Under the pieces are notes generated by a model. It ran no database searches and was not told the origin of the DNA. It was given only the letters and a program-made list of their open reading frames with translations. Both the position numbers and the translations under genes were made by a program. DNA of 64,000 nucleotides, from NCBI RefSeq assembly GCF_937863595.1, contig NZ_CALMGQ010000088.1:1-64000 (forward strand), written 5' to 3'. Shown piece by piece: positions 933 through 63,292 of this stretch (positions within the stretch are counted from its first letter, which is position 1; each line of letters opens with the position of its first letter). This DNA is from an uncultured Cytophaga sp. (GTDB lineage: Bacteria; Bacteroidota; Bacteroidia; Cytophagales; Cytophagaceae).

Positions 933-2213
933 CTATTCCTCCACATAATCCAAATCTTTTCCAAACGTTTCAGGCAAGCGATATACCGCCCAAAAAGAGA
1001 TAGTAAATAACAGCACTGTAACAGCAATTGCTGCAGAAGTTAAGGAACCTAACTGCAAAAATTTACCATCTGTACTGCGCAAATAATCAAACAACAATGC
1101 AATAATTACCAAAGAACCCCGCACAAAATTTGGTGCAGTAGTAGCAGTAGTTGAGCGTAAATTTGTGCCAAACTGTTCGGATGCAACCGTTACAAACATT
1201 GCCCAGAAACCAGCGGAGAAGCCCAACAGCGTAATCATGATATAATAGGTAGTAGCAGTTGCATTAGAGAGATTTGTATAAATCAGAATCAAGCTTATGC
1301 AAAAAACATAAAAGATGTAAAATGCTTTTTTTCGACTTTTTAATAGTTGCGATAACATGCCACTTGCGATGTCACCAAATACCAAGCCCGTATAACAAAA
1401 CATAATGCTGTATTCTCGTTCTAATCCTGACGTTCCCACAATTCCCATTTCATTTGCGAATTCAGGAGCACGCCCAATCAAAATACCTATTACAAACCAA
1501 ATTGGAGAACCAATAATAATACAGTAAATATACTTTAAAGCAATTTTCTTATTTTTAAATAAATCAAAGAAATTACCATGCGCAACATCGGCACGTTTCG
1601 ATTTTTCGAACATCCCTGATTCAAAAACTCCAATACGAAGCAATAACAATGATAAGCCCAATGCTCCACCAATAAAATAAGCTGTTTGCCATGTCCAGAA
1701 TTTACCAACCAATGCTGCAACAATAGCACCTATTACACCAACCGAAGCAACAATCATGGTGCCGTAGCCACGCTTCTCTTTGCTCATTACTTCGCTTACC
1801 AAAGTAATCCCCGCTCCTAACTCACCTGCCAATCCAAAACCTGCAATGAATCGTAAAATACCATAGGCCATAAACGCTTGGTCTTTATCATGTAATAGAT
1901 CTACAAATCCGTTTGCAATGTTTGCTACAGAATACAGTATAATGGAACCAAACAATACCGATAAACGTCCTTTTTTATCACCTAAAATCCCCCAAAAGAC
2001 TCCGCCAATAAGCATTCCGATCATTTGAATATCCAAGAGTGTTTGAAATTCTTCAATGATATTTTCTGTGAACCCAATTCCTTTGATACTTTTCACCCCA
2101 ATAATTAAAAAGAGTACCAAATCATAGACATCTACAAAATAACCCAATGCAGCGACTAGCACAGTAGTTGTGATGGCATTTTTAACAGATATTTCCGTTG
2201 ATTGTATTTTCAT
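933..2213 (-). CDS. MFS transporter, metabolite:H+ symporter type
   Basis: A 426-residue inner-membrane protein with about 12 hydrophobic segments. The loop between TM2 and TM3 carries the MFS signature GGVFWGILGDKKGR (around residues 71-84), and LRFIAGFGLAGELGAG (around 125-140) resembles the GxGxGGE motif of the sugar and metabolite:H+ symporter branch. The substrate cannot be read from sequence. The gene stands alone, convergent with the enolase gene and divergent from waaA across an 85-bp spacer. Its TAG stop lies inside the first unit of a heptamer array. The ATG start at 2213 is preceded by no competing in-frame start. Confidence 0.85.
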   Translation of the reverse strand: MKIQSTEISVKNAITTTVLVAALGYFVDVYDLVLFLIIGVKSIKGIGFTENIIEEFQTLLDIQMIGMLIGGVFWGILGDKKGRLSVLFGSIILYSVANIANGFVDLLHDKDQAFMAYGILRFIAGFGLAGELGAGITLVSEVMSKEKRGYGTMIVASVGVIGAIVAALVGKFWTWQTAYFIGGALGLSLLLLRIGVFESGMFEKSKRADVAHGNFFDLFKNKKIALKYIYCIIIGSPIWFVIGILIGRAPEFANEMGIVGTSGLEREYSIMFCYTGLVFGDIASGMLSQLLKSRKKAFYIFYVFCISLILIYTNLSNATATTYYIMITLLGFSAGFWAMFVTVASEQFGTNLRSTTATTAPNFVRGSLVIIALLFDYLRSTDGKFLQLGSLTSAAIAVTVLLFTISFWAVYRLPETFGKDLDYVEE

Positions 2214-2298
2214 AAGTCATTTATTCATTAAAAATCGTTGCAAAATACAAAACACTTAGATGCTTATCAAACATACAATTTCGTACCTTGCAGTAATT

Positions 2299-3555
2299 AT
2301 GAAATTTATATACGATTTATCGATTCACTTCTATAATGGACTGATTTCACTTGCAAAACTAGGTGGAAACAAAAAAGCTGCCTTTATTTCTGATGGAAGA
2401 AAAGATACCTTTGGAAAAATCGATTCTTTCAAAAAAAATACGCCAGCATCTATTGCACTTTTTCATTGCGCTTCTCTTGGAGAATTTGAACAAGCAAAAC
2501 CTGTAATTGAATCGTTCAAGCGTTCATACCCAGAATATAAAATTGTTATAAGTTTCTTTTCTCCATCCGGTTTTGAAGTACGCAAAAATTATTCATTTGC
2601 AGATCTTGTAATATATCTACCATCCGATACAAAAAAAGAAGCTCAGCGTTTTATACATGAACTCTCTCCTAGTATTGTCTTTATTGTTAAGTATGAATTT
2701 TGGTTGAATCTATTAGATGCTATTGCAGCAAAAAAAATACCCTTGTATCTCATCTCTGGTGTATTTAGAAAAAACTTATTTTTCTTTCGAATGGGCGGTG
2801 GCTTTATGCGCAAACGGTTACATGCATTTACACACTTCTTTTTACAAGATTACAATTCAGGAGAATTATTGAAAAAAATTGGGTTTGCCAATTGGACTGT
2901 CTCTGGAGATACGCGCTTTGACCGAGTACAACAAACTGCTATTAGTACATTCACTATTCCAGAGGTGGAGCAATTCAAACAAAACAAACCAGTGTTAGTC
3001 ATTGGGAGTGGTTGGGCTGCAGACATGGATATTTTAATTCCGTTCATAAATACCTTTGAAAGAGAATTAAAAATTATTTTTGCTCCGCACGAAATCCATT
3101 CAAATGAAATAGATGAGATCATTTCGAAGATTTCTAAAACATGCATTCGTTTTTCTTCCTTTAATACGCAACAAGCATTGAACGCAGATGTATTAATCAT
3201 TGACAATATTGGTATGTTATCATCGATATATGCCTATGCAGATTATGCCTACGTTGGTGGAGCTTTTGGGAGTGGCCTACACAATATATTAGAACCTGCT
3301 GTATTTGGTTCACCTATATTTTTTGGACCGAATATTAAAAAATTTCCAGAAGCTACTTGGCTTATAAAATTAGGTTTTGCTAAAAGCATTGTTTCTACAG
3401 AATCATTTACGAACGAATTTAATCGAATTTATAATTCCACAGAGTTGAAGGAATCAATAAAAAAAGGTTTAAAAAGCACCATGCTTCAATCTTGTGGAGC
3501 AACAGAATGTATTATGAAAAATCTAGAATCTACTTTGAACCAGGCTGCACAATGA
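2299..3555 (+). CDS. waaA: 3-deoxy-D-manno-octulosonic acid (Kdo) transferase
   Basis: A 418-residue GT30-family glycosyltransferase that adds Kdo from CMP-Kdo to lipid A at the cytoplasmic face of the inner membrane. The N terminus has a short hydrophobic anchor. HCASLGEFEQAKP carries the family glutamate of the N-terminal Rossmann domain, and the C-terminal part has the nucleotide-sugar-binding pattern YVGGAFGSGLHNILEPAVFG. The start was set at ATG 2299 (MKFIYDLS) rather than 2260, because homologues begin at this point and the extra 13 residues are unlike them. The stop overlaps the rsgA start as ATGA, so the two are probably translationally coupled. kdsB, which makes its donor substrate, is at the far end of this window. 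Confidence 0.92.
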   Translation: MKFIYDLSIHFYNGLISLAKLGGNKKAAFISDGRKDTFGKIDSFKKNTPASIALFHCASLGEFEQAKPVIESFKRSYPEYKIVISFFSPSGFEVRKNYSFADLVIYLPSDTKKEAQRFIHELSPSIVFIVKYEFWLNLLDAIAAKKIPLYLISGVFRKNLFFFRMGGGFMRKRLHAFTHFFLQDYNSGELLKKIGFANWTVSGDTRFDRVQQTAISTFTIPEVEQFKQNKPVLVIGSGWAADMDILIPFINTFERELKIIFAPHEIHSNEIDEIISKISKTCIRFSSFNTQQALNADVLIIDNIGMLSSIYAYADYAYVGGAFGSGLHNILEPAVFGSPIFFGPNIKKFPEATWLIKLGFAKSIVSTESFTNEFNRIYNSTELKESIKKGLKSTMLQSCGATECIMKNLESTLNQAAQ

Positions 3556-17695: not shown

Positions 17696-18066
17696 TAGTT
17701 CGACTGATATTGAAGTTGAAAATGATATTGTTCATTATGGCCAATAATGTAATTCAACATGTTAATTACATTGTTTAGTAATTCAACACATGCATCACAT
17801 TCTCCACTTAGTGGATGTTTCATTTGAATTAACTTTAACCAATACCTTGTTTGCACAGACATTTCTGATGCAGTAGATATTGCTTCTGTAAAATCCATTT
17901 GACTTGTTGATGCCCAAGCGGTTTCAGAGTGCTTGCGAATAGACAAACCGTATTTTAATAGTCTTGCGGATAACTCCATTTCATTATTCTTTAACAGAAT
18001 AGCATAGAGTTCCATAATCCTATTAGAAAGTTCAAAAGTTCGGTTACTTAGTAGTTCGTAAGTCAT
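17695..18066 (-). CDS. Small helical protein of unknown function (dcw insert B)
   Basis: 123 residues, strongly helical by composition, no signal peptide and no TM segment. The layout of amphipathic helices separated by short turns, with [21 protein letters not shown] near the middle, resembles four-helix-bundle proteins of the 23S rRNA intervening-sequence/Avd type. That resemblance is judged by eye and is tentative. It shares a loose pattern with the neighbouring insert A (LDLSxRI...Y / MELSARL...Y, then ASK/ASE near a LxLI motif), which suggests an old duplication. It lies where murF normally sits and overlaps mraY by one base, so it is expressed with the cluster. No function is assigned. 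Confidence 0.75.
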
Positions 18067-44183: not shown

Positions 44184-44220
44184 TGGTAGTTACCTGTTTC
44201 TAGTTGCTAGTTACTAGACT
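44184..44220. repeat. Heptamer array, CTAG dialect
   Basis: About five 7-nt units, clearest at 44200, 44207 and 44214 (CTAGTTG, CTAGTTA, CTAGACT on the plus strand). It begins directly upstream of the ComB-like start codon at 44183. Confidence 0.7.
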
Positions 44221-44352
44221 AAACAAAATTAGTCTTGAGATTAATAATTAGCTCCTATTATTTTTAATTTACTTTAATTCTGTTTTGTCAATTTTGCACT
44301 TTGGTACAATTATCTGCAAGTAGTTTGTCGAAAAGACAAAACCACGTCAAAA

Positions 44353-44387
44353 TTAGTTGCTAGGTTCTAGTTACTAGTTGCTAGACT
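44353..44387. repeat. Heptamer array, CTAG dialect
   Basis: Five units of 7 nt at 44353, 44360, 44367, 44374 and 44381 (TTAGTTG, then CTAGGTT and others). Same orientation as the array at 44184 and inverted relative to that at 44466. Confidence 0.75.
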
Positions 44388-46473: not shown

Positions 46474-47034
46474 ATGCCAACAGAATTTGACAATCCATGG
46501 AAAACAATTCGTTCGAAAGAAATTTATGAAAATCCATGGATTTCTGTACGAGAAGAAGATGTGTTAAAACCGAATGGCGAACCAGGAATTTACGGTGTTG
46601 TCTCATTTAAAAACAAAGCAATCGGTATCGTTCCCATTGATTCAGAAGGATATACCTATTTGGTTGGTCAGTTCCGCTATACCTTAAATGCATATAGCTG
46701 GGAAATACCCGAAGGTGGTGGTCCAATGAACGAAACACCTTTAGAAGCTGCCAAACGCGAACTTCAAGAAGAAACAGGCTTAATTGCAAGTACTTGGAAA
46801 GATTTAGGGCGCATCCACACCTCCAATTCGGTTACGGATGAAGAGGGATTTTTATTCTTAGCAACCGACCTCACTCCTGGTCCCAGCAACCCAGAAGATA
46901 CTGAACAATTAATTATAAAAAGAGTATCTTTGAAAGATGCTGTAGCAATGGTTATGAATGGGGAAATTACCGATAGCTTAACGATTGCAGGATTATTGAA
47001 AGCATCTTTATTAGTACAGAGTACGGAGTATTAA
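46474..47034 (+). CDS. NUDIX hydrolase (ADP-ribose pyrophosphatase-like)
   Basis: 186 residues. The complete Nudix box GGGPMNETPLEAAKRELQEETGL fits Gx5Ex7REUxEExGU. The surrounding sequence (YRYTL-like QFRYTLNAYSWEIPEGGG) is typical of NUDIX enzymes acting on ADP-ribose or other nucleoside diphosphate sugars. The last residues VQSTEY and the TAA stop are encoded by a heptamer array (47014-47048), so the present C terminus may have been set by the repeat. Confidence 0.88.
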   Translation: MPTEFDNPWKTIRSKEIYENPWISVREEDVLKPNGEPGIYGVVSFKNKAIGIVPIDSEGYTYLVGQFRYTLNAYSWEIPEGGGPMNETPLEAAKRELQEETGLIASTWKDLGRIHTSNSVTDEEGFLFLATDLTPGPSNPEDTEQLIIKRVSLKDAVAMVMNGEITDSLTIAGLLKASLLVQSTEY

Positions 47035-47048
47035 GTACGAAGTATTAA
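47014..47048. repeat. Heptamer array, GTAC dialect, overlapping the NUDIX stop
   Basis: Five units at 47014, 47021, 47028, 47035 and 47042 (GTACAGA, GTACGGA, then GTATTAA, GTACGAA, GTATTAA). The NUDIX TAA stop at 47032-47034 is the end of unit three. Confidence 0.8.
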
Positions 47049-47093
47049 AAAATCACTTGCTTTTATTATTCAAATTAAAAATAATATAATCAC

Positions 47094-47128
47094 GTACTTC
47101 GTACTCTGTACTTAGTACTTCGGAATTA
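47094..47128. repeat. Heptamer array, GTAC dialect, inverted partner
   Basis: Units at 47094, 47101, 47108 and 47115 (GTACTTC, GTACTCT, then GTACTTA, GTACTTC) ending five bases before the plsC ATG at 47133. Its reverse complement matches the array at 47014 at 17 of 18 bases over the best stretch, so the two can pair. Confidence 0.8.
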
Positions 47129-47891: not shown

Positions 47892-48175
47892 ATTTAGATG
47901 CAAAAACCATCGGAAAAATTGCTCACTTAGCACGATTAGAATTTGATGAAACTTCTTTAGAGGCATTCTCTACAGATTTCAACAAAATGTTGACTTGGAT
48001 AAATAAATTAGAGGAAGTAAACACCGACAATGTAAAACCATTGGTTCATATGAGCGCAGAAGTAAATGTTCTTCGTGAAGATATTGATAAAGTTACCATT
48101 ACTCATGCAGAAGCATTGCTGAATGCGCCTAAAAAAGATTCGGATTATTTCAGAGTTCCTAAATTCCTTTCTTAG
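47888..48175 (+). CDS. gatC: Glutamyl-/aspartyl-tRNA amidotransferase subunit C
   Basis: 95 residues, the small linker subunit of the GatCAB complex that forms Gln-tRNA(Gln) or Asn-tRNA(Asn). The typical start is IGKIAHLARLEFDE, then FNKMLTWINKLEEVNTDNVKPLVH and LREDIDK. gatA and gatB are not adjacent. Coupled to plsC by a 4-nt overlap. Its TAG stop lies inside the first unit of a heptamer array. Confidence 0.93.
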   Translation: MNLDAKTIGKIAHLARLEFDETSLEAFSTDFNKMLTWINKLEEVNTDNVKPLVHMSAEVNVLREDIDKVTITHAEALLNAPKKDSDYFRVPKFLS

Positions 48176-48206
48176 TTGCTAGTTACTAGTAACTGGTTTC
48201 TAGACA
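48172..48206. repeat. Heptamer array, CTAG dialect, at the gatC stop
   Basis: Units at 48172, 48179, 48186, 48193 and 48200 (TTAGTTG, CTAGTTA, then CTAGTAA, CTGGTTT, CTAGACA). The TAG of unit one is the gatC stop codon (48173-48175). Confidence 0.8.
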
Positions 48207-48260
48207 AAAAAAATACTAAAATAAAATTATAAGTAATATGCAGTTGTTAGTATAACTTGT

Positions 48261-48288
48261 CTGGTAACTAGCAACTGGAAACTGGCGA
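48261..48288. repeat. Heptamer array, CTAG dialect, inverted partner
   Basis: Four units at 48261, 48268, 48275 and 48282 (CTGGTAA, CTAGCAA, then CTGGAAA, CTGGCGA), ending six bases before the ATG of the next gene. Orientation is opposite to the array at 48172, with a spacer of 54 nt. Confidence 0.8.
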
Positions 48289-48294
48289 CAACCT

Positions 48295-51869: not shown

Positions 51870-51878
51870 CGTTGTTCA

Positions 51879-51913
51879 AAATTCAAATAACAAAAAACAA
51901 ATTCCAAACTACT
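51879..51913. repeat. Heptamer array, A-rich dialect
   Basis: Five units at 51879, 51886, 51893, 51900 and 51907 (AAAATTC, AAATAAC, then AAAAAAC, AAATTCC, AAACTAC), ten bases after the adenosyltransferase stop codon. Because it is A-rich the period is less certain than in other arrays. Confidence 0.5.
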
Positions 51914-51979
51914 GAAATCAACACCAAGAAAAGCATTGAGGCATTAATCCATGATTAGTTCCATTTGTTCGCCACGGAG

Positions 51980-52000
51980 TATTTGTTATTTGTTATTTAT
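51980..52000. repeat. Heptamer array, T-rich inverted partner
   Basis: Three units, TATTTGT twice and TATTTAT, at 51980, 51987 and 51994. The orientation is the complement of the A-rich array at 51879, with a spacer of about 66 nt. Confidence 0.55.
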
Positions 52001-52020
52001 AAAAGCCTTAGCCTTTTTGT

Positions 52021-56520: not shown

Positions 56521-56704
56521 AAACTGCAACTTTAATTAAGTAAAATATCAGATTAGAATATTACGTCGGAATAGCGAATTTTTTGTTACATGTTTTATTG
56601 GGAATTTTACAAAAGTATTCTTTGTATGTATTATAATTTAGGTAATAAATTGAATTCGTATTTAATCATCGGTTTGGAATTTGTTTTGTGTTATTTGGAA
56701 TTTA

Positions 56705-57487
56705 TCAGATCATCCCTTCTACCACACCCATTCCAAACAAAGCAAAATCATACTTCACCGGATCTTTGGGATCTAAGCCTTTGAGGTTTTCTGTTAGCTC
56801 AACTGCCGTCTTCCAATCTACTTGGGTGCGCGTAATAAGCCCTAGCTGACGTGCGATACGATCTACGTGTACATCACAGGGACAAACCAATTGCGCAGGT
56901 TGTATGCCTTTCCAAATCCCAAAATCTACGCCTTTCTTATCTCTTCGTACCATCCAACGCAAAAACATATTAAGTCGTTTGCATGCAGACTTTGTTTCAG
57001 GAGAAGAAATGTGTTTGCGTGTCCGATGCGGGTGTTCAAAAGAGAAAAAATAATTTCGAAAGGCAATCAAACCACCTTCAATATTTAAGGAATTTTTATT
57101 CATCCCTGTTAAAAATACTTCTTCCATAGAAGTGAATGCGGAATACAATTCTTTTAAAGCATATACAAAATACAACAAATCGGTATCGTTAAATGTTCGG
57201 TGAACAAAGCCTTCCAGCTGCTTTAAGTCTATATCTTCATGCTGTGTAATAAATTGATGCGGAGCTCCATCCATCCGTTCAATCAAGTCCGTACATTTAT
57301 TGATGATCGTTTTTCGTTGTCCCCAAGCCAAAACTGCAGCAATAAATCCCATGATCTCAATGTCCTCCTTCTTCGTAAACCGATGTGGAATACAAATTGG
57401 ATCTAGAGCAACGAAATCAGTTGTATTGTATTGCTTGTATTTTGATTCAAGTAAATTATACAACACATCTCTGGAGTATTTATTCAT
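56705..57487 (-). CDS. TIGR02757 (DUF2400) family protein
   Basis: 260 residues. The family pattern is clear: DPICIPHRFTKKEDIEIMGFIAAVLAWGQRKTI, FNFFSFEHPH-like YFFSFEHPH, CKRLNMFLRWMVRRDKKGVDFGIWK and PCDVHVDRIARQLGL. The helical core resembles helix-hairpin-helix DNA glycosylases such as EndoIII, so a nucleic acid role is possible but undemonstrated. Confidence 0.9.
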   Translation of the reverse strand: MNKYSRDVLYNLLESKYKQYNTTDFVALDPICIPHRFTKKEDIEIMGFIAAVLAWGQRKTIINKCTDLIERMDGAPHQFITQHEDIDLKQLEGFVHRTFNDTDLLYFVYALKELYSAFTSMEEVFLTGMNKNSLNIEGGLIAFRNYFFSFEHPHRTRKHISSPETKSACKRLNMFLRWMVRRDKKGVDFGIWKGIQPAQLVCPCDVHVDRIARQLGLITRTQVDWKTAVELTENLKGLDPKDPVKYDFALFGMGVVEGMI

Positions 57488-57537
57488 GTGTATTTTTTAT
57501 TCTAAGGGCGATTTGTGGTTTGTGAAAATTTACTCTT

Positions 57538-57583
57538 CTAGGGGCGATGCCCCTAGCTTTGATATGTCAGGCTTTCAGCCTGA
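57538..57583. repeat. REP-like double hairpin
   Basis: Two perfect small palindromes in a row: CTAGGGGC-GAT-GCCCCTAG (57538-57556) and TCAGGCT-TTC-AGCCTGA (57567-57583). GC-rich islands in AT-rich spacer DNA, as expected of repetitive extragenic palindromes. Confidence 0.65.
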
Positions 57584-57636
57584 GCCGCGAACGGTGAAAG
57601 ATTTGCGTGAGTGCTGATGATTTTGATTTTCAAACA

Positions 57637-57668
57637 GTCATCAGACCACAAAAAAGTGGTCTGACGAC
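57637..57668. repeat. REP-like hairpin with A6 loop
   Basis: 13-bp stem with one mismatch: GTCATCAGACCAC (57637-57649), loop A6, GTGGTCTGACGAC (57656-57668). A decayed relative occurs at 31885-31918. Confidence 0.65.
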
Positions 57669-57703
57669 AGCGTTATATGTCAACAACACACATACCTTTT
57701 ATT

Positions 57704-57787
57704 TTTGTACTTTGTACTCAGTACTCAGTACTTTCCCTGACCACTGACCACTGTTTACTGACCACTATATTCTGTTTACTGACCACT
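57704..57787. repeat. Twelve-unit mosaic heptamer array at the cellulase 3' end
   Basis: Twelve consecutive in-phase 7-nt units from 57704 to 57787. The first four are of the GTAC dialect (TTTGTAC, TCAGTAC), the fifth is a transition (TTTCCCT), and the last seven are GACCACT or GTTTACT types with one ATATTCT. The TAA stop of the cellulase (57776-57778) and its last codons SGQ lie inside the array. Confidence 0.85.
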
Positions 57788-59548
57788 CTTCTTAAGATCC
57801 AACGCCTCTCCCATTCCGGGCAATAGTTTTTGATCGGAATCCATAATACCAAACCAAACTTGCCAAGCGATATCCATTTCTGAGAAAATTTCTCCCATGG
57901 TTTTAAAGTAGGCGTTCAAGTCTTCTATCTTAGCGGTGTTTGGCAATGCGCCCCATTCGTTACAAATCAATGGGACTTTATAATCGTATGCCCAATTTTT
58001 AACTTTAGCCAATCTATTTTTTATGAATTGTTTGTTCCCTTCCTTGTAATAGGTTCGAGCTTGATCTTTGATCCAGCTCGGTGTACCTTCAACAATACCA
58101 AAATCACGAAACTCTGTAGACCAACGCTCTGGAGTATATGGAAAGGGAATATGTTTCACCGTTCCCATATTTGTCCATGATGCACCTTGATGCGAAAAGA
58201 TAAATGGATCGTACATATGAAATGCATAGATCACATACTTATCATTCAAAGGTTTATTTTTTACCAATTCATCTAAACTATACCATTTGGTATCGCCAAA
58301 AATAATGGGTCTTGTCTTATCTACTTTCCGGATTGAATCAATCATCATTTGTGCAAGTAAGGTCCAATCTGCCTGATCAATGTATTCACCTTCTGCCAAG
58401 CTTAAGCCAGGTTCATTGGTCAATTCAAAAAATAAATCTGGGCGTTTTTCTGTTACAAAATGTTGCGCAACCACACGCCATAAAGATGAAACTGCGATTC
58501 TATATTTTTGATCTTTAGAAGCAGCTCTGCTATAACTTCCATCGTATGCATGATAATCTATGGTCAATGACAAACCATAACGCTTCGTCCAGCTATTCAT
58601 TGAGTCTAATAGCGTATACAACATCGGCTCTATTACAATTTTCTTATTCGTTCCATTCAACACATTCAATCGATCTACTACATATAAATCTAAATCAATT
58701 GGAAAACGAATCCCTTCTATTCCTTGGTCTGCTTGCAGTTTAATGATGGCTTCATTATACTTCCAATCTTTTGGGTTAGCAGATATTATTTTATTTGCTT
58801 CAGCCCAACTCGCCAAATTCATTCCTTTATTCAAATACTTTTTAGCGAGGTCGTTTAACGGGCTTGATACATTTCCTTTAAGAGCGACAGCTGCGGGTAT
58901 TTCTGCAGGTCGAATAACCATATCATTTTGCTTTACATATGTTATTTCTTTTACAAAACGAATCTCATCTATTTCAAAACTACCCGATTTTTGATCTACG
59001 TTCCATACCAGTTTAATCGAATTGTCTAGATTTAAATCAACTTTCTTTCCCCAACCCTCTTGGTTAATCATAGCAAAATCTATGGTAACCAAGGTCCACT
59101 CATCGCTTTGAGGAATATTTATTTGATAATAATCATAATCCTTAATTTCTATCGTTTCAACACGCAGCTTATGCGCTACACCTTTGTGCCAATAGGATAT
59201 ACCTGCAAATTGAGAAGGATTAACCGTTACAGATTTGGTAATGCTTGTAGCGATAGCATAATAAGGAGACCATTGATAGGATGCTTTCTCAAGAATCACA
59301 TCTGCATGCAGCATACCTTTAGATGCATGACCACCGGTGGTTACAAAACACGATTGAAAAGAAGGCTGAGTGATGCGACTTTTACCTCCATCGCGATTAT
59401 CATTAAAGCTATACCAATAGCCGCCCAAGCTATTTTGAGTATTGCCATCTTCAAAATCTTCAATAAGAGGTGCTGGTGTTTGCTGCTGCGCAGAACAGAC
59501 GATTCCCACACAGATAAAAAATAAGGTAAGGATATGATTTCTTTTCAT
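57776..59548 (-). CDS. GH5 family cellulase/endoglucanase with N-terminal carbohydrate-binding-like domain
   Basis: 590 residues. Signal peptide (ILTLFFICVGIVCSAQ, about 1-21), so exported. Residues 28-200 form a beta-rich CBM11-like domain (IEDFEDGN at the start, SFEIDEIRFV at the end). The GH5 catalytic barrel covers about 230-585, with the acid/base E379 in FELTNEP, H444 and Y446 in YAFHMYD, and the nucleophile E531 in ICNEWGA. No C-terminal secretion domain is visible. Endo-1,4-glucanase is most likely. The C-terminal SGQ and stop codon come from a heptamer array. Confidence 0.9.
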   Translation of the reverse strand: MKRNHILTLFFICVGIVCSAQQQTPAPLIEDFEDGNTQNSLGGYWYSFNDNRDGGKSRITQPSFQSCFVTTGGHASKGMLHADVILEKASYQWSPYYAIATSITKSVTVNPSQFAGISYWHKGVAHKLRVETIEIKDYDYYQINIPQSDEWTLVTIDFAMINQEGWGKKVDLNLDNSIKLVWNVDQKSGSFEIDEIRFVKEITYVKQNDMVIRPAEIPAAVALKGNVSSPLNDLAKKYLNKGMNLASWAEANKIISANPKDWKYNEAIIKLQADQGIEGIRFPIDLDLYVVDRLNVLNGTNKKIVIEPMLYTLLDSMNSWTKRYGLSLTIDYHAYDGSYSRAASKDQKYRIAVSSLWRVVAQHFVTEKRPDLFFELTNEPGLSLAEGEYIDQADWTLLAQMMIDSIRKVDKTRPIIFGDTKWYSLDELVKNKPLNDKYVIYAFHMYDPFIFSHQGASWTNMGTVKHIPFPYTPERWSTEFRDFGIVEGTPSWIKDQARTYYKEGNKQFIKNRLAKVKNWAYDYKVPLICNEWGALPNTAKIEDLNAYFKTMGEIFSEMDIAWQVWFGIMDSDQKLLPGMGEALDLKKSGQ

Positions 59549-59767: not shown

Positions 59768-59801
59768 GTATTGCGAGGTCTGCTCACTAGAGCGTTCACT
59801 C

Positions 59802-59850
59802 TACACATTACATTTTACACTTTTTTATCTGACCACTGACCACTCGTTTA
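59802..59850. repeat. Mosaic heptamer array
   Basis: Seven in-phase units: TACACAT, TACATTT, TACACTT (59802-59822), a transition TTTTATC, TGACCAC twice (59830-59843), and TCGTTTA. It combines the dialects seen separately at 61891 (as complement) and 57739. Confidence 0.75.
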
Positions 59851-61055: not shown

Positions 61056-61854
61056 ACGCGTGCAATTCATTATTATTTTTAACTATAATTAATTGATCTT
61101 TTACTACAAAGAAAGTATCCATTCCGATACCTTTAAGACCTACTTGAAGCTCTTCATGCAATAATAAAGCCCCTTTTTCATCGGCAACCAACATTTTATT
61201 GGTCAATTTGTCTTCTATGTAAATATAATAAGAAATAAGGACCTTATCGCCTTTCTCTAGATATTCTATCATTCGAACGGCTTTTTCCTTGGCTACAATT
61301 TCAATATATTCTTGAATCTTAGTGAAAAAGGAATGTCCTTCTTCAAAATGAAACGGATACGTGATGAGTGATGTTTGCTGCGTTTTCTTGTTAAATGTAG
61401 CGAAAAGTTCCTTCATCGAATAGGTACCTTTAAGCTCCCCATCGTTCCAATCTAGCTTAGAATAGACGCTCTCGTCTTCCCCTACAACTTCTGATATCAG
61501 AATACCATCCGACTCCACATGCATTACCTGCGCTTCCTCTCTACCCCATTTTACTTTACCCGTAAGAGCATCAATAACAGCAAATCCACGTTGCTCGGGC
61601 ATATCAGGGTCATTAAACTTCACAATCAACACATTTCCCTTTTCAGCAATTTTCAAACTGCTCCACCAAGGGTCTAAAATAGCTTGATTGGACCATAATT
61701 CTTTCTTTTTTTCGATGTCTATACTACTGAAAACAGCTTTACGGGTATCGCCATTCCTACTTTCTACAAAAAGAATACCACTCTCATTATCAGCAACAAC
61801 TTTCCAGATGGTACCATTAAAAATCTTAGAAAAAGAGGGAGTATATACAGACAT
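61042..61854 (-). CDS. Bacteroidetes hypothetical protein, possibly DUF4905
   Basis: 270 residues, soluble, beta-rich, with repeated short strands resembling a beta-propeller (SGILFVESRNGDTRKAVFSSID and FAVIDALTGKVKWGREE, a PQQ-like blade). It has no signal peptide, so cytoplasmic. I believe it belongs to the DUF4905 family, but this is from memory of its pattern. Co-transcribed with the LysM gene. Confidence 0.7.
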   Translation of the reverse strand: MSVYTPSFSKIFNGTIWKVVADNESGILFVESRNGDTRKAVFSSIDIEKKKELWSNQAILDPWWSSLKIAEKGNVLIVKFNDPDMPEQRGFAVIDALTGKVKWGREEAQVMHVESDGILISEVVGEDESVYSKLDWNDGELKGTYSMKELFATFNKKTQQTSLITYPFHFEEGHSFFTKIQEYIEIVAKEKAVRMIEYLEKGDKVLISYYIYIEDKLTNKMLVADEKGALLLHEELQVGLKGIGMDTFFVVKDQLIIVKNNNELHAYVIK

Positions 61855-61890
61855 AGGTATTATTTGTTAATTTTAAGTCAAAGGTAGGAG

Positions 61891-61925
61891 AATTAAGTGT
61901 AAAGTGTAAAGTTTTGAGTGTAAAG
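61891..61925. repeat. Heptamer array, TGTAAAG dialect
   Basis: Units AATTAAG, TGTAAAG, TGTAAAG, TTTTGAG and TGTAAAG at 61891, 61898, 61905, 61912 and 61919. TGTAAAG is a rotation of the complement of TACACTT, found at 59816. Confidence 0.75.
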
Positions 61926-61927
61926 TA

Positions 61928-61951
61928 TTCTACGATAATTAGATCGTAGAA
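61928..61951. promoter_or_regulatory. Perfect hairpin upstream of the NfeD gene
   Basis: TTCTACGAT, 6-nt loop, ATCGTAGAA. It ends 15 nt before the ATG at 61967, so it would lie in the leader or at the promoter and could act on translation or as an operator. Confidence 0.45.
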
Positions 61952-61966
61952 AGTAAAAAAACAAAA

Positions 61967-63292
61967 ATGAAAAAATATATAGCCTTATTATCGTTCCTTT
62001 TATTCGCACTAACAAAGGTTGCAGCGCAAAAGGTTTTTGTAATCAATATCAGACAAGAAATTGATCCGCAAATGTCGCATTTTGTTGATTTAGGATTAAA
62101 AGCTGCAACTCGTGATAGTGCAGATTACATCATCATCGATATGGATACCTATGGTGGGGCGCTTACAGATGCAGATAAAATAAGAACGGCATTATTAGAT
62201 TATCCGAAACCTGTATACGTGTACATCAATAAAAATGCAGCGTCTGCAGGTGCATTAATATCCATTGCTTGCGATTCTATTTATATGGACCGTGGATCCA
62301 ACATTGGTTCTGCAACCGTTGTAGATGGCGAAGGTAAACCTGCGCCTGATAAGTACCAATCCTTTATGCGTGCAATGATGCGCAGTACAGCAGAAGTAAA
62401 TAATCGCAACCCTGACATTGCAGAAAGTATGGTTGGTACTGTTGTAGGGACCGATAGCATTACGGTAGGTAAAGTTACAGCATTTACAACATCTGAAGCC
62501 ATCGCAAATCACTATTGCGAAGCAGAAGTACGTTCATTAACGGATTTATATAAACGGTTGCATTTTGAAAATGCACACATCACAGTATTTGAATTGAGCA
62601 CGGTAGATGAGATTGTAAATTTATTTATGAATCCAGCCTTACGCGGCTTAATTTTATTACTCATAATCGGAGGTATTTATTTTGAATTACAAACACCAGG
62701 AGTTGGTTTTCCCTTGATTGCTGCAATGATTGGTGTAGCGCTGTATTTTATACCTTCCTACCTAACGGGTGTAGCAGAATATTGGGAAATTATTTTATTC
62801 TTTGTGGGAATCGTATTGCTCTTCCTAGAAATAGCTGTTATTCCTGGCTTTGGAATAGCTGGAGTCTCAGGGCTTTTTTGTATTGTAATTTCTTTGATAT
62901 TAGCAGGTCTAAATAATCACATATTTGATTTTACTTTTGTTCCTGAAAATGATATTATTTTAAGTTCTGCCACCGTATTAATTTCATTCACCTTAGGTAT
63001 GGTGTTGGTTTTTGTTGCCGGAAATCAATTTATGAAAAGTGCCTTATTCAATAGAGTTACCTTACAAGACACCTTTCAAGCAAGCGAGGGATTTACTTCT
63101 AACTTTAATGAAAATACGTTTGTAGGAAAACTAGGCATCAGTTATTCTGTATTACGACCAAGTGGCAAAGTACAAATTGATGGAAAAATTTATGATGCAT
63201 ACTCCCGTGGCGAATATATAGCAGAACAGAAACGTATTGAAGTGATTCAACAAGTAGGCAGTTCTTTAAAAGTAAAAGAAGTACATGACTAA
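61967..63292 (+). CDS. NfeD-family membrane protein with ClpP-class serine protease domain
   Basis: 441 residues. Signal peptide (IALLSFLLFALTKVAAQ), protease domain at about 22-200 with the oxyanion and serine region KNAASAGALISIACDSIYMDRGSNIGSA, then four or five TM segments (about 215-345) and a C-terminal OB-fold domain (about 370-438). This is the full-length NfeD arrangement; relatives cleave stomatin-like partners, but no stomatin gene is adjacent. The stop overlaps the kdsB start. Confidence 0.9.
   Translation: MKKYIALLSFLLFALTKVAAQKVFVINIRQEIDPQMSHFVDLGLKAATRDSADYIIIDMDTYGGALTDADKIRTALLDYPKPVYVYINKNAASAGALISIACDSIYMDRGSNIGSATVVDGEGKPAPDKYQSFMRAMMRSTAEVNNRNPDIAESMVGTVVGTDSITVGKVTAFTTSEAIANHYCEAEVRSLTDLYKRLHFENAHITVFELSTVDEIVNLFMNPALRGLILLLIIGGIYFELQTPGVGFPLIAAMIGVALYFIPSYLTGVAEYWEIILFFVGIVLLFLEIAVIPGFGIAGVSGLFCIVISLILAGLNNHIFDFTFVPENDIILSSATVLISFTLGMVLVFVAGNQFMKSALFNRVTLQDTFQASEGFTSNFNENTFVGKLGISYSVLRPSGKVQIDGKIYDAYSRGEYIAEQKRIEVIQQVGSSLKVKEVHD

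Follow-up and report, generated by a model that had tools for sequence, protein, structure and literature searches.

A tandem array of 7-nt units forms the 3′ end of a cellulase gene in the 64,000-nt stretch of DNA analysed here (the window), which is contig C88 in a draft assembly of 3.97 Mb and 188 contigs from the genus of Cytophaga aurantiaca DSM 3654. The gene, one of the open reading frames (ORFs) called with a simple script, encodes a GH5 cellulase (57776–59548, minus strand; PF00150, E 1.4e-27); next on the same strand, beyond a spacer at 57488–57775, lies a DUF2400 gene (56705–57487; PF09674, E 7.6e-90). Over positions 57704–57787, lag-7 identity is 0.62, compared with 0.14 at lag 6 and 0.09 at lag 8, and exceeds the value in each of 60 shuffled 64-kb windows (shuffle maximum 0.558); the 7-nt period reported in an initial annotation of this DNA is thus real. 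The annotation had further described twelve units in one phase, a single array whose unit sequence was rewritten halfway along, and this description fails. The array scan returns two adjoining arrays, 57693–57732 and 57735–57787, and an ACT anchor common to both lies in phase 0 in block 1 and in phase 6 in block 2, with next to no matches across the junction. Given this one-base offset of the anchor, two arms that came to lie side by side are a simpler account than one array rewritten in a single phase; any two arrays that abut can be laid on a ruler of sevens. Block 1 (57704–57732 of the detected run 57693–57732, minus strand) is almost perfect (lag-7 identity 0.91) and reads AGTACTG AGTACTG AGTACAA AGTACAA in the sense direction, a unit sequence type, or dialect, designated d1. 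Block 2 (57739–57787 of the scanned 57735–57787, minus strand) has the sense units AGTGGTC AGTAAAC AGAATAT AGTGGTC AGTAAAC AGTGGTC AGTGGTC of dialect d2, a lag-7 identity of 0.60 and a higher period of 21 bp.

The array begins directly after the last conserved AAGAAG of the cellulase gene and supplies the codons for S, G and Q together with the stop, such that the protein ends ...LKKSGQ. Its orthologues in four genomes and in named metagenome-assembled genomes end with LKKK-stop, LKKN-stop or, in genome G018, LK-stop, without an array of this kind. The C. aurantiaca orthologue has, by eye and under the scan threshold, three or four units of a different dialect (TGAATTA, TAAGTTA, TGAATTG) that start from the same point. 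The earlier claim that array units make up the last codons and stop of the gene is upheld, and the region is not conserved as protein, in keeping with the initial annotation; the array probably replaced the last cellulase codons. Both dialects of the window array recur throughout the genome (60 blast matches), d1 and d2 arrays stand side by side at three further loci (L002, L009, L019), and d1 units also bracket an S23p gene elsewhere in the same genome (L159). The predicted RNA fold of the window array alone has a z score of -3.7.

Heptamer arrays of this type constitute a genome-wide class, with an excess of period 7 that supports the initial annotation. In 412 kb of the genome chosen regardless of arrays, 42 arrays of period 7 were found as opposed to 3 in shuffles, an all-N 1.9-kb contig (L038) in this sample adding one to the count of every period. 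Periods 5, 8, 10 and 11 are close to shuffle level, while excesses at periods 6, 9, 12 and 15 are expected because of codons and that at 14 because of period 7 itself. The arrays hug genes: the median distance from array to gene edge is 4 bp, compared with 32 bp for random placement, and intergenic regions that bear arrays are longer (median 241 vs 152 bp). Arrays occur at both gene ends throughout the genome, oriented from gene to spacer, the window array being located at a stop codon, and 86 of 104 gene-edge arrays are purine-rich when read in this direction. Several contigs begin inside heptamer arrays (L097 1–65, L107 1–55, L029 1–133, L089 1–114); this suggests that draft assemblies tend to end at such arrays and that the counts may be too low.

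Arrays that share an intergenic region are predominantly inverted relative to each other. Partner arrays in the source genome were inverted in 42 cases, direct in 8 and undecided in 48, where some of the underlying sequence had been picked for holding arrays, which affects densities and not orientation. The inverted-to-direct ratio is 11:1 in C. aurantiaca and 6:1 in a second relative, G002 (a single contig of 4,433,218 bases). Both arms of an inverted pair, or bracket, have the same dialect in 31 of 37 cases, compared with 20% expected at random. Orientation counts from this dialect analysis are partly circular, some of these arrays having served to compile the list of dialects by eye; the 42:8 count is not affected. 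Inverted brackets fill the spacer up to both flanking genes, with 15 bp in total left uncovered. That the gene, and not the spacer, might be the bracketed cassette was considered and rejected, dialect agreement across the gene being found in 9 of 26 cases as against 31 of 37 across the spacer. For eight ORF-less brackets, RNA fold prediction gave structures of greater stability than those of shuffled sequence (z scores from -2.2 to -11.5), in a set picked for symmetry whose d1 and d5 units are partly self-complementary.

At two loci, a gene for a four-helix-bundle protein was noticed beside or inside a bracket, which prompted a search for the S23p/IVP family (PF05635, TIGR02436), a family known chiefly from insertions within rRNA genes. 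Three PF05635 genes in the source genome score above the Pfam cut-off, and all three are located inside heptamer brackets, of dialects d1, d9 and d6. The sample was then extended to some 57 further Bacteroidota genomes, each represented by its best-scoring locus, and to 16 plasmid loci, mostly cyanobacterial, all chosen as best matches to the Pfam model and none selected for arrays. At a permissive threshold, the same best period was obtained on both sides of S23p at 64 of 70 usable loci (Bacteroidota, cyanobacteria and others), the period being 7 at 56 loci and 8 at 8. The same two-sided test for period 7 or 8 was positive for 3 of 90 recA-locus genes, 26 of 626 genes of the source genome and none of 19 other genes within the S23p loci. 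With a stricter threshold, period-7 arrays are present at 78 of 114 S23p flanks, compared with 47 of 157 flanks of other genes of the same loci (p=4e-10) and 1 of 38 recA flanks in S23p-positive genomes (p=1e-13); other periods reach 2–9%.

The arms at S23p loci mirror each other as those of the ORF-less brackets do. Arms of one locus match in inverted orientation with a mean score of 19.2, compared with 7.0 for arms of other loci (sd 0.44), a contrast that may partly reflect genome-specific dialects, as the loci come from different genomes; this does not apply to the excess of inverted over direct matches, inverted being the better in 53 arm pairs and direct in 7. Unit sequences range across loci from AAAGCTA to AGTAGGG to GACGCGA, so that in S23p elements the unit sequence is free, whereas unit length and mirror symmetry are conserved. 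Read inward, the 5′ arm is purine-rich at 53 of 66 loci, and arm length has a median of 5.7 units with a wide spread. S23p itself is present in 192 of 247 sampled Bacteroidia genomes. Octamer arms were found on both sides of L186, L205, L211, L216, L219, L291, L292 and L293 and on one side of L203 and L207, five octamer loci clustering on the S23p tree. Descent of the octamer elements from a single S23p lineage was considered and set aside: 6 changes on the tree, compared with 9.5 in shuffles, indicate clustering, but partly of near-copies and on a poorly resolved tree.

S23p elements are located between genes of operons and, in one case, within a coding sequence. Gene pairs separated by S23p brackets on plasmids are nrdB and nrdA, cas6 and cas4, cas10 (cmr2) and cmr3, and sufB and a gene for iron-sulfur assembly. 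In genome G096 a methylase ORF, open over 747 codons, contains an S23p element in antisense orientation with arms of the AGTAGCC type; it is located between the residues GEPDI and GLDIYDP, which in a Hymenobacter homologue are joined by a linker some 30 residues long; the DNA at 1058–3301 of this locus (L204) is open on both strands. Another variable linker of the same methylase ORF contains a second array, without S23p, that codes for SEQWSVASGQ. IVP genes located between cas6 and cas4, or in other loci between cmr2 and cmr3, have been listed among CRISPR-Cas-associated functions (PMC3936711). Three cyanobacterial plasmid loci (L281, L282, L292) have S23p with arms between cas genes in the same placement, and these arms suggest that the IVP genes in cas loci may be insertions into the operon instead of serving a CRISPR-Cas function.

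Comparison between genomes indicates both persistence and turnover. One arm type, the 31-mer AAATTCCAAAWAACAAAAAACAAATTCCAAA, is present in 53 copies in the source genome, 23 in C. aurantiaca and 13 in G002 (a reversed control gave none), with inverted partners visible at several sites; it was detected in 5 of 345 sampled Bacteroidota genomes, the source genome included, and is exact in G292, a member of another family. In C. aurantiaca, a sister species, orthologous intergenic regions can differ in dialect: a d4 bracket in the source genome corresponds to a bracket of a d2-like dialect there. Elsewhere one d1 bracket is kept in both genomes while the gene-adjoining d4 array is found only in the source genome, and other orthologous regions differ in length (405 vs 67 bp; 142 vs 34 bp).

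The closest published counterpart is the intervening sequence (IVS) of 23S rRNA. The Coxiella burnetii IVS contains an S23p ORF and a 28-bp terminal stem cut by RNase III, with three tandem GACAGAT heptamers (2 or 3 by strain) just upstream of the ORF, and excision from RNA by RNase III has been published for it and for others (PMC4990558). Insertions in rRNA genes of the candidate phyla radiation (CPR) encode IVP at several sites, with ORF-containing and ORF-less insertions at the same sites (PMC11270868). The present elements share with these the S23p ORF, inverted termini with the potential to form a stem, tandem heptamers and the coexistence of copies with and without the ORF. They differ in lying between protein genes or in gene ends and not in rRNA, in having tandem arrays as arms on both sides, and in their many ORF-less copies within one genome.

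Other intergenic repeats resemble the arrays in part. The short tandemly repeated repetitive (STRR) sequences of cyanobacteria are defined by near-uniform tandem copies of a single heptamer, and the window array, with its two dialects and variable units, lacks this trait. The initial annotation had drawn the same contrast with cyanobacterial repeats, which is doubtful, given that S23p elements of cyanobacterial plasmids have similar heptamer arms, many with mixed units. STRR and the GGGAATC and GGGGA(C/T)T repeats of Xanthomonas and Nostoc are likewise 7-nt, tandem, intergenic and sometimes inverted; in the parts of the source consulted they are presented as simple repeats without a partner gene, systematic inverted pairing or a link to S23p (PMC4692102). 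The TAACTGA direct repeats of Beggiatoaceae, cyanobacteria and Bacteroidetes are heptamers of the same kind, lie near start and stop codons and are mixed with other heptamers in some genomes; the sections available treat them as one motif and a possible translational signal, and mention neither brackets nor S23p (PMC4679880). The window units are not TAACTGA but AGTACNN and AGTGGTC/AGTAAAC. Also relevant are elements of the type of miniature inverted-repeat transposable elements (MITEs), such as Correia/nemis and the enterobacterial repetitive intergenic consensus (ERIC), which are short and ORF-less with inverted ends and are found at the borders of genes in many copies; RNase III cleaves nemis RNA. 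The present elements differ from these in having tandem 7-nt arrays as ends, in the freedom of sequence between families, and in having no shared core and no identified parent transposase. The sites that could be compared were too distant for recognition of an empty site with a duplication.

We consider it somewhat more probable than not that the heptamer arrays form the ends, or terminal arms, of IVS-like insertion elements of one family, and that the window array consists of arms of ORF-less copies. Such an element would comprise tandem units of 7 nt, or less often 8 nt, that are mostly rich in purines when read inward, then a spacer, and then units of the same kind in inverted orientation; the spacer of the complete form would encode S23p/IVP, a four-helix-bundle relative of Avd, and most copies in the source genome would be without this gene. 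Its insertion sites would be those that do the host little harm: the borders of genes, operons, the linker of a protein and, as the published cases show, helices of rRNA. By analogy with the Coxiella IVS, the arms would pair in RNA and be cut by RNase III, while S23p or a partner enzyme would set the unit length and drive spread, ORF-less copies being dependent on S23p. The window array has tandem 7-nt units like those in the termini of S23p elements and, judged from its dialect, place and company, is probably an arm of an ORF-less d1 copy beside an arm of another, d2, copy.

Several results weigh against this interpretation. The cellulase–DUF2400 spacer contains no S23p gene and no clear partner arm on its far side, one side of the window array only being clear; its membership therefore rests on dialect, on position and company, and on the genome-wide pattern. 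The two arms of a bracket resemble each other in unit order no more than arms of different brackets do (p=0.76). This result does not support conserved stem pairing and led us to discard stem covariation and recent hairpin copying as accounts of the arms. A common core in the solo, ORF-less spacers was sought, and the one 30-bp motif recovered occurs at only 9 places in 909 kb, 4 of them near arrays, so no shared spacer core of the kind seen in MITEs was found. A profile search detected no S23p remnants in solo spacers beyond the known copies, and a derivation of ORF-less brackets from decayed S23p elements was rejected. Array density does not track S23p copy number, recA-locus flanks having arrays in 2 of 134 cases in S23p-positive and 0 of 86 in S23p-free genomes. 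Arrays may or may not depend on S23p at the level of whole genomes: S23p-free genomes are without a clear period-7 excess, but the recA loci of genomes that do have S23p contain hardly more arrays. Neither transposition nor duplication of a target nor processing of RNA was observed, and we infer both the mobility and the RNA processing of the elements.

In a rival reading, ORF-less brackets are miniature elements moved by another transposase, S23p being a passenger that repeatedly lands in or is carried by them. The absence of S23p remnants from solo spacers and the independence of array density from S23p number agree with it, as does the finding of only 3 S23p genes above the cut-off among several hundred expected brackets. 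A passenger would, however, be expected often unbracketed, and S23p is bracketed at nearly every locus, in several phyla and by a different unit sequence each time; we therefore regard this reading as unlikely. Slightly less likely still are plain simple sequence repeats (SSRs), in which slippage would favour 7-nt units, the arrays would grow and mutate in unselected DNA, and their gene-end position would mark the limit of the coding sequence. The independent unit order of the two arms of a bracket is what such slippage would give, and very uniform arrays are known (L097, L026). Direct repeats without a systematic mirror partner are not what is seen across the genome, where inverted same-dialect partners prevail, even if none is clear at the window site. 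Slippage predicts neither the inverted pairing (42:8 in the source genome and 53:7 at S23p loci), nor the shared dialect of both arms (31:6), nor an identical 31-mer in several genera, nor the link of S23p to a unit length of 7 or 8. As the initial annotation had maintained, slippage of one motif alone is insufficient, because the arms come as inverted same-dialect pairs.

The arrays might instead be functional sites in mRNA or DNA to which a host protein binds in steps of 7 nt (in translation control or protection of mRNA ends), and which selection keeps at gene borders. Arrays abut start and stop codons, unit variation looks position-specific by eye, the predicted folds of brackets reach z scores of -11.5, and translational regulation was proposed for TAACTGA repeats by MacGregor 2015 (PMC4679880). 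Against this, orthologous intergenic regions have different dialects or none, unit sequence is free across S23p loci, and the arms of one bracket match only at the level of dialect, which makes this explanation very unlikely. Finally, that the window array by itself is a chance or unrelated local repeat outside the bracket family, as the spacer without a clear partner arm might suggest, is highly improbable given the genome-wide recurrence of both its dialects and the three other loci at which d1 and d2 adjoin.

The IVS-like element family can be extended to a bolder proposal, which we advance tentatively and at distinctly less than even chances: a class of bacterial mobile elements with ends recognisable from the length of their repeats and their mirror symmetry, not from their sequence. 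An Avd-like pentameric S23p, or a co-acting enzyme, would set the 7- or 8-nt step, each lineage would have its own unit sequence, ORF-less copies would spread through intergenic DNA, and such elements would have left behind the heptamer repeats known in cyanobacteria, Beggiatoaceae and Bacteroidetes. S23p is a pentamer of four-helix bundles in structure 2GSC (PMC4990558), and 2RLD likewise has five chains. Homology of S23p to Avd has been noted (PMC10053308); in our comparison with the Avd model of diversity-generating retroelements the match was weak and under the cut-off (E 9e-7). A pentameric ring that takes one 7–8-nt unit per protomer would, as a guess, explain why length is kept and sequence is not. 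The model for such a ring is the TRAP-like manner of binding repeats.

Heptamer repeats between genes were described long ago in cyanobacteria and other bacteria but have no accepted account of their origin, and S23p/IVP is a widespread protein to which no function has been assigned. Our results connect the arrays with S23p throughout Bacteroidota and cyanobacteria, and in isolated cases outside these groups, and they make the arrays a candidate cis-acting partner of S23p. A search of the open literature, with most subscription papers and all preprints outside its coverage, found no link of heptamer arrays in general to S23p. The arms around S23p in cas operons offer an explanation for the IVP genes there, and the cellulase and methylase cases suggest that such arrays may rewrite protein ends and linkers. 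Neither the cellulase region nor S23p was matched in phages.

Further brackets and arrays are present in the window. A complete ORF-less d1 bracket at 47013–47127 has inverted arms (47013–47048 and 47093–47127) that touch both flanking genes and a predicted RNA fold with a z score of -5.9. A d5 bracket at 48169–48289 (arms 48169–48203 and 48261–48289; fold z -6.1) is inverted by dialect, with an undecided alignment score of 14 vs 12, and a d6 bracket at 51875–52002 has arms at 51875–51912 and 51980–52002 (fold z -2.2). The pair-orientation test placed two d5 arrays in direct orientation within one intergenic region at 44189–44384 (44189–44217 and 44354–44384). A solo arm of dialect d6 (AAATTCCAAATAACACAAAACAAATTCCAAA; 56673–56703, minus strand), located by a 31-mer pattern search with one mismatch, adjoins the stop codon of the DUF2400 gene. 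Upstream of the cellulase gene there are arrays of a d3-like dialect and of d2 (59795–59844, minus strand), and intergenic d3-like arrays lie further right (61854–61974). A weak PF05635-like gene at 17752–18045 on the minus strand (26.2 bits, under the cut-off) is tightly packed among other genes, without arrays, and is maybe a relative with another role.

Two kinds of short sequence recur in the spacers. A motif close to CGCCGTGGTTGTGTCTTTTCGACCAACCAC was found at 44320–44349 of the window, in L026 (6842–7339) and its C. aurantiaca orthologue, and in L030 and L039; it is present in the source genome and C. aurantiaca, whereas the sample of G002 lacks it. Intergenic DNA also contains short repeats that form hairpins (CTAGGGGCGATGCCCCTAG, CAGGCTTTCAGCCTG, GCAGTCAAAGACTGC, CCAGACTGAAGTCTGG), in the window at 57540–57680 within the cellulase–DUF2400 spacer and also in L002, L013 and L036. 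In the source genome, 19 of 26 matches resembling GCAGTCAAAGACTGC lie within 300 bp of a period-7 array, compared with a background of 27%.
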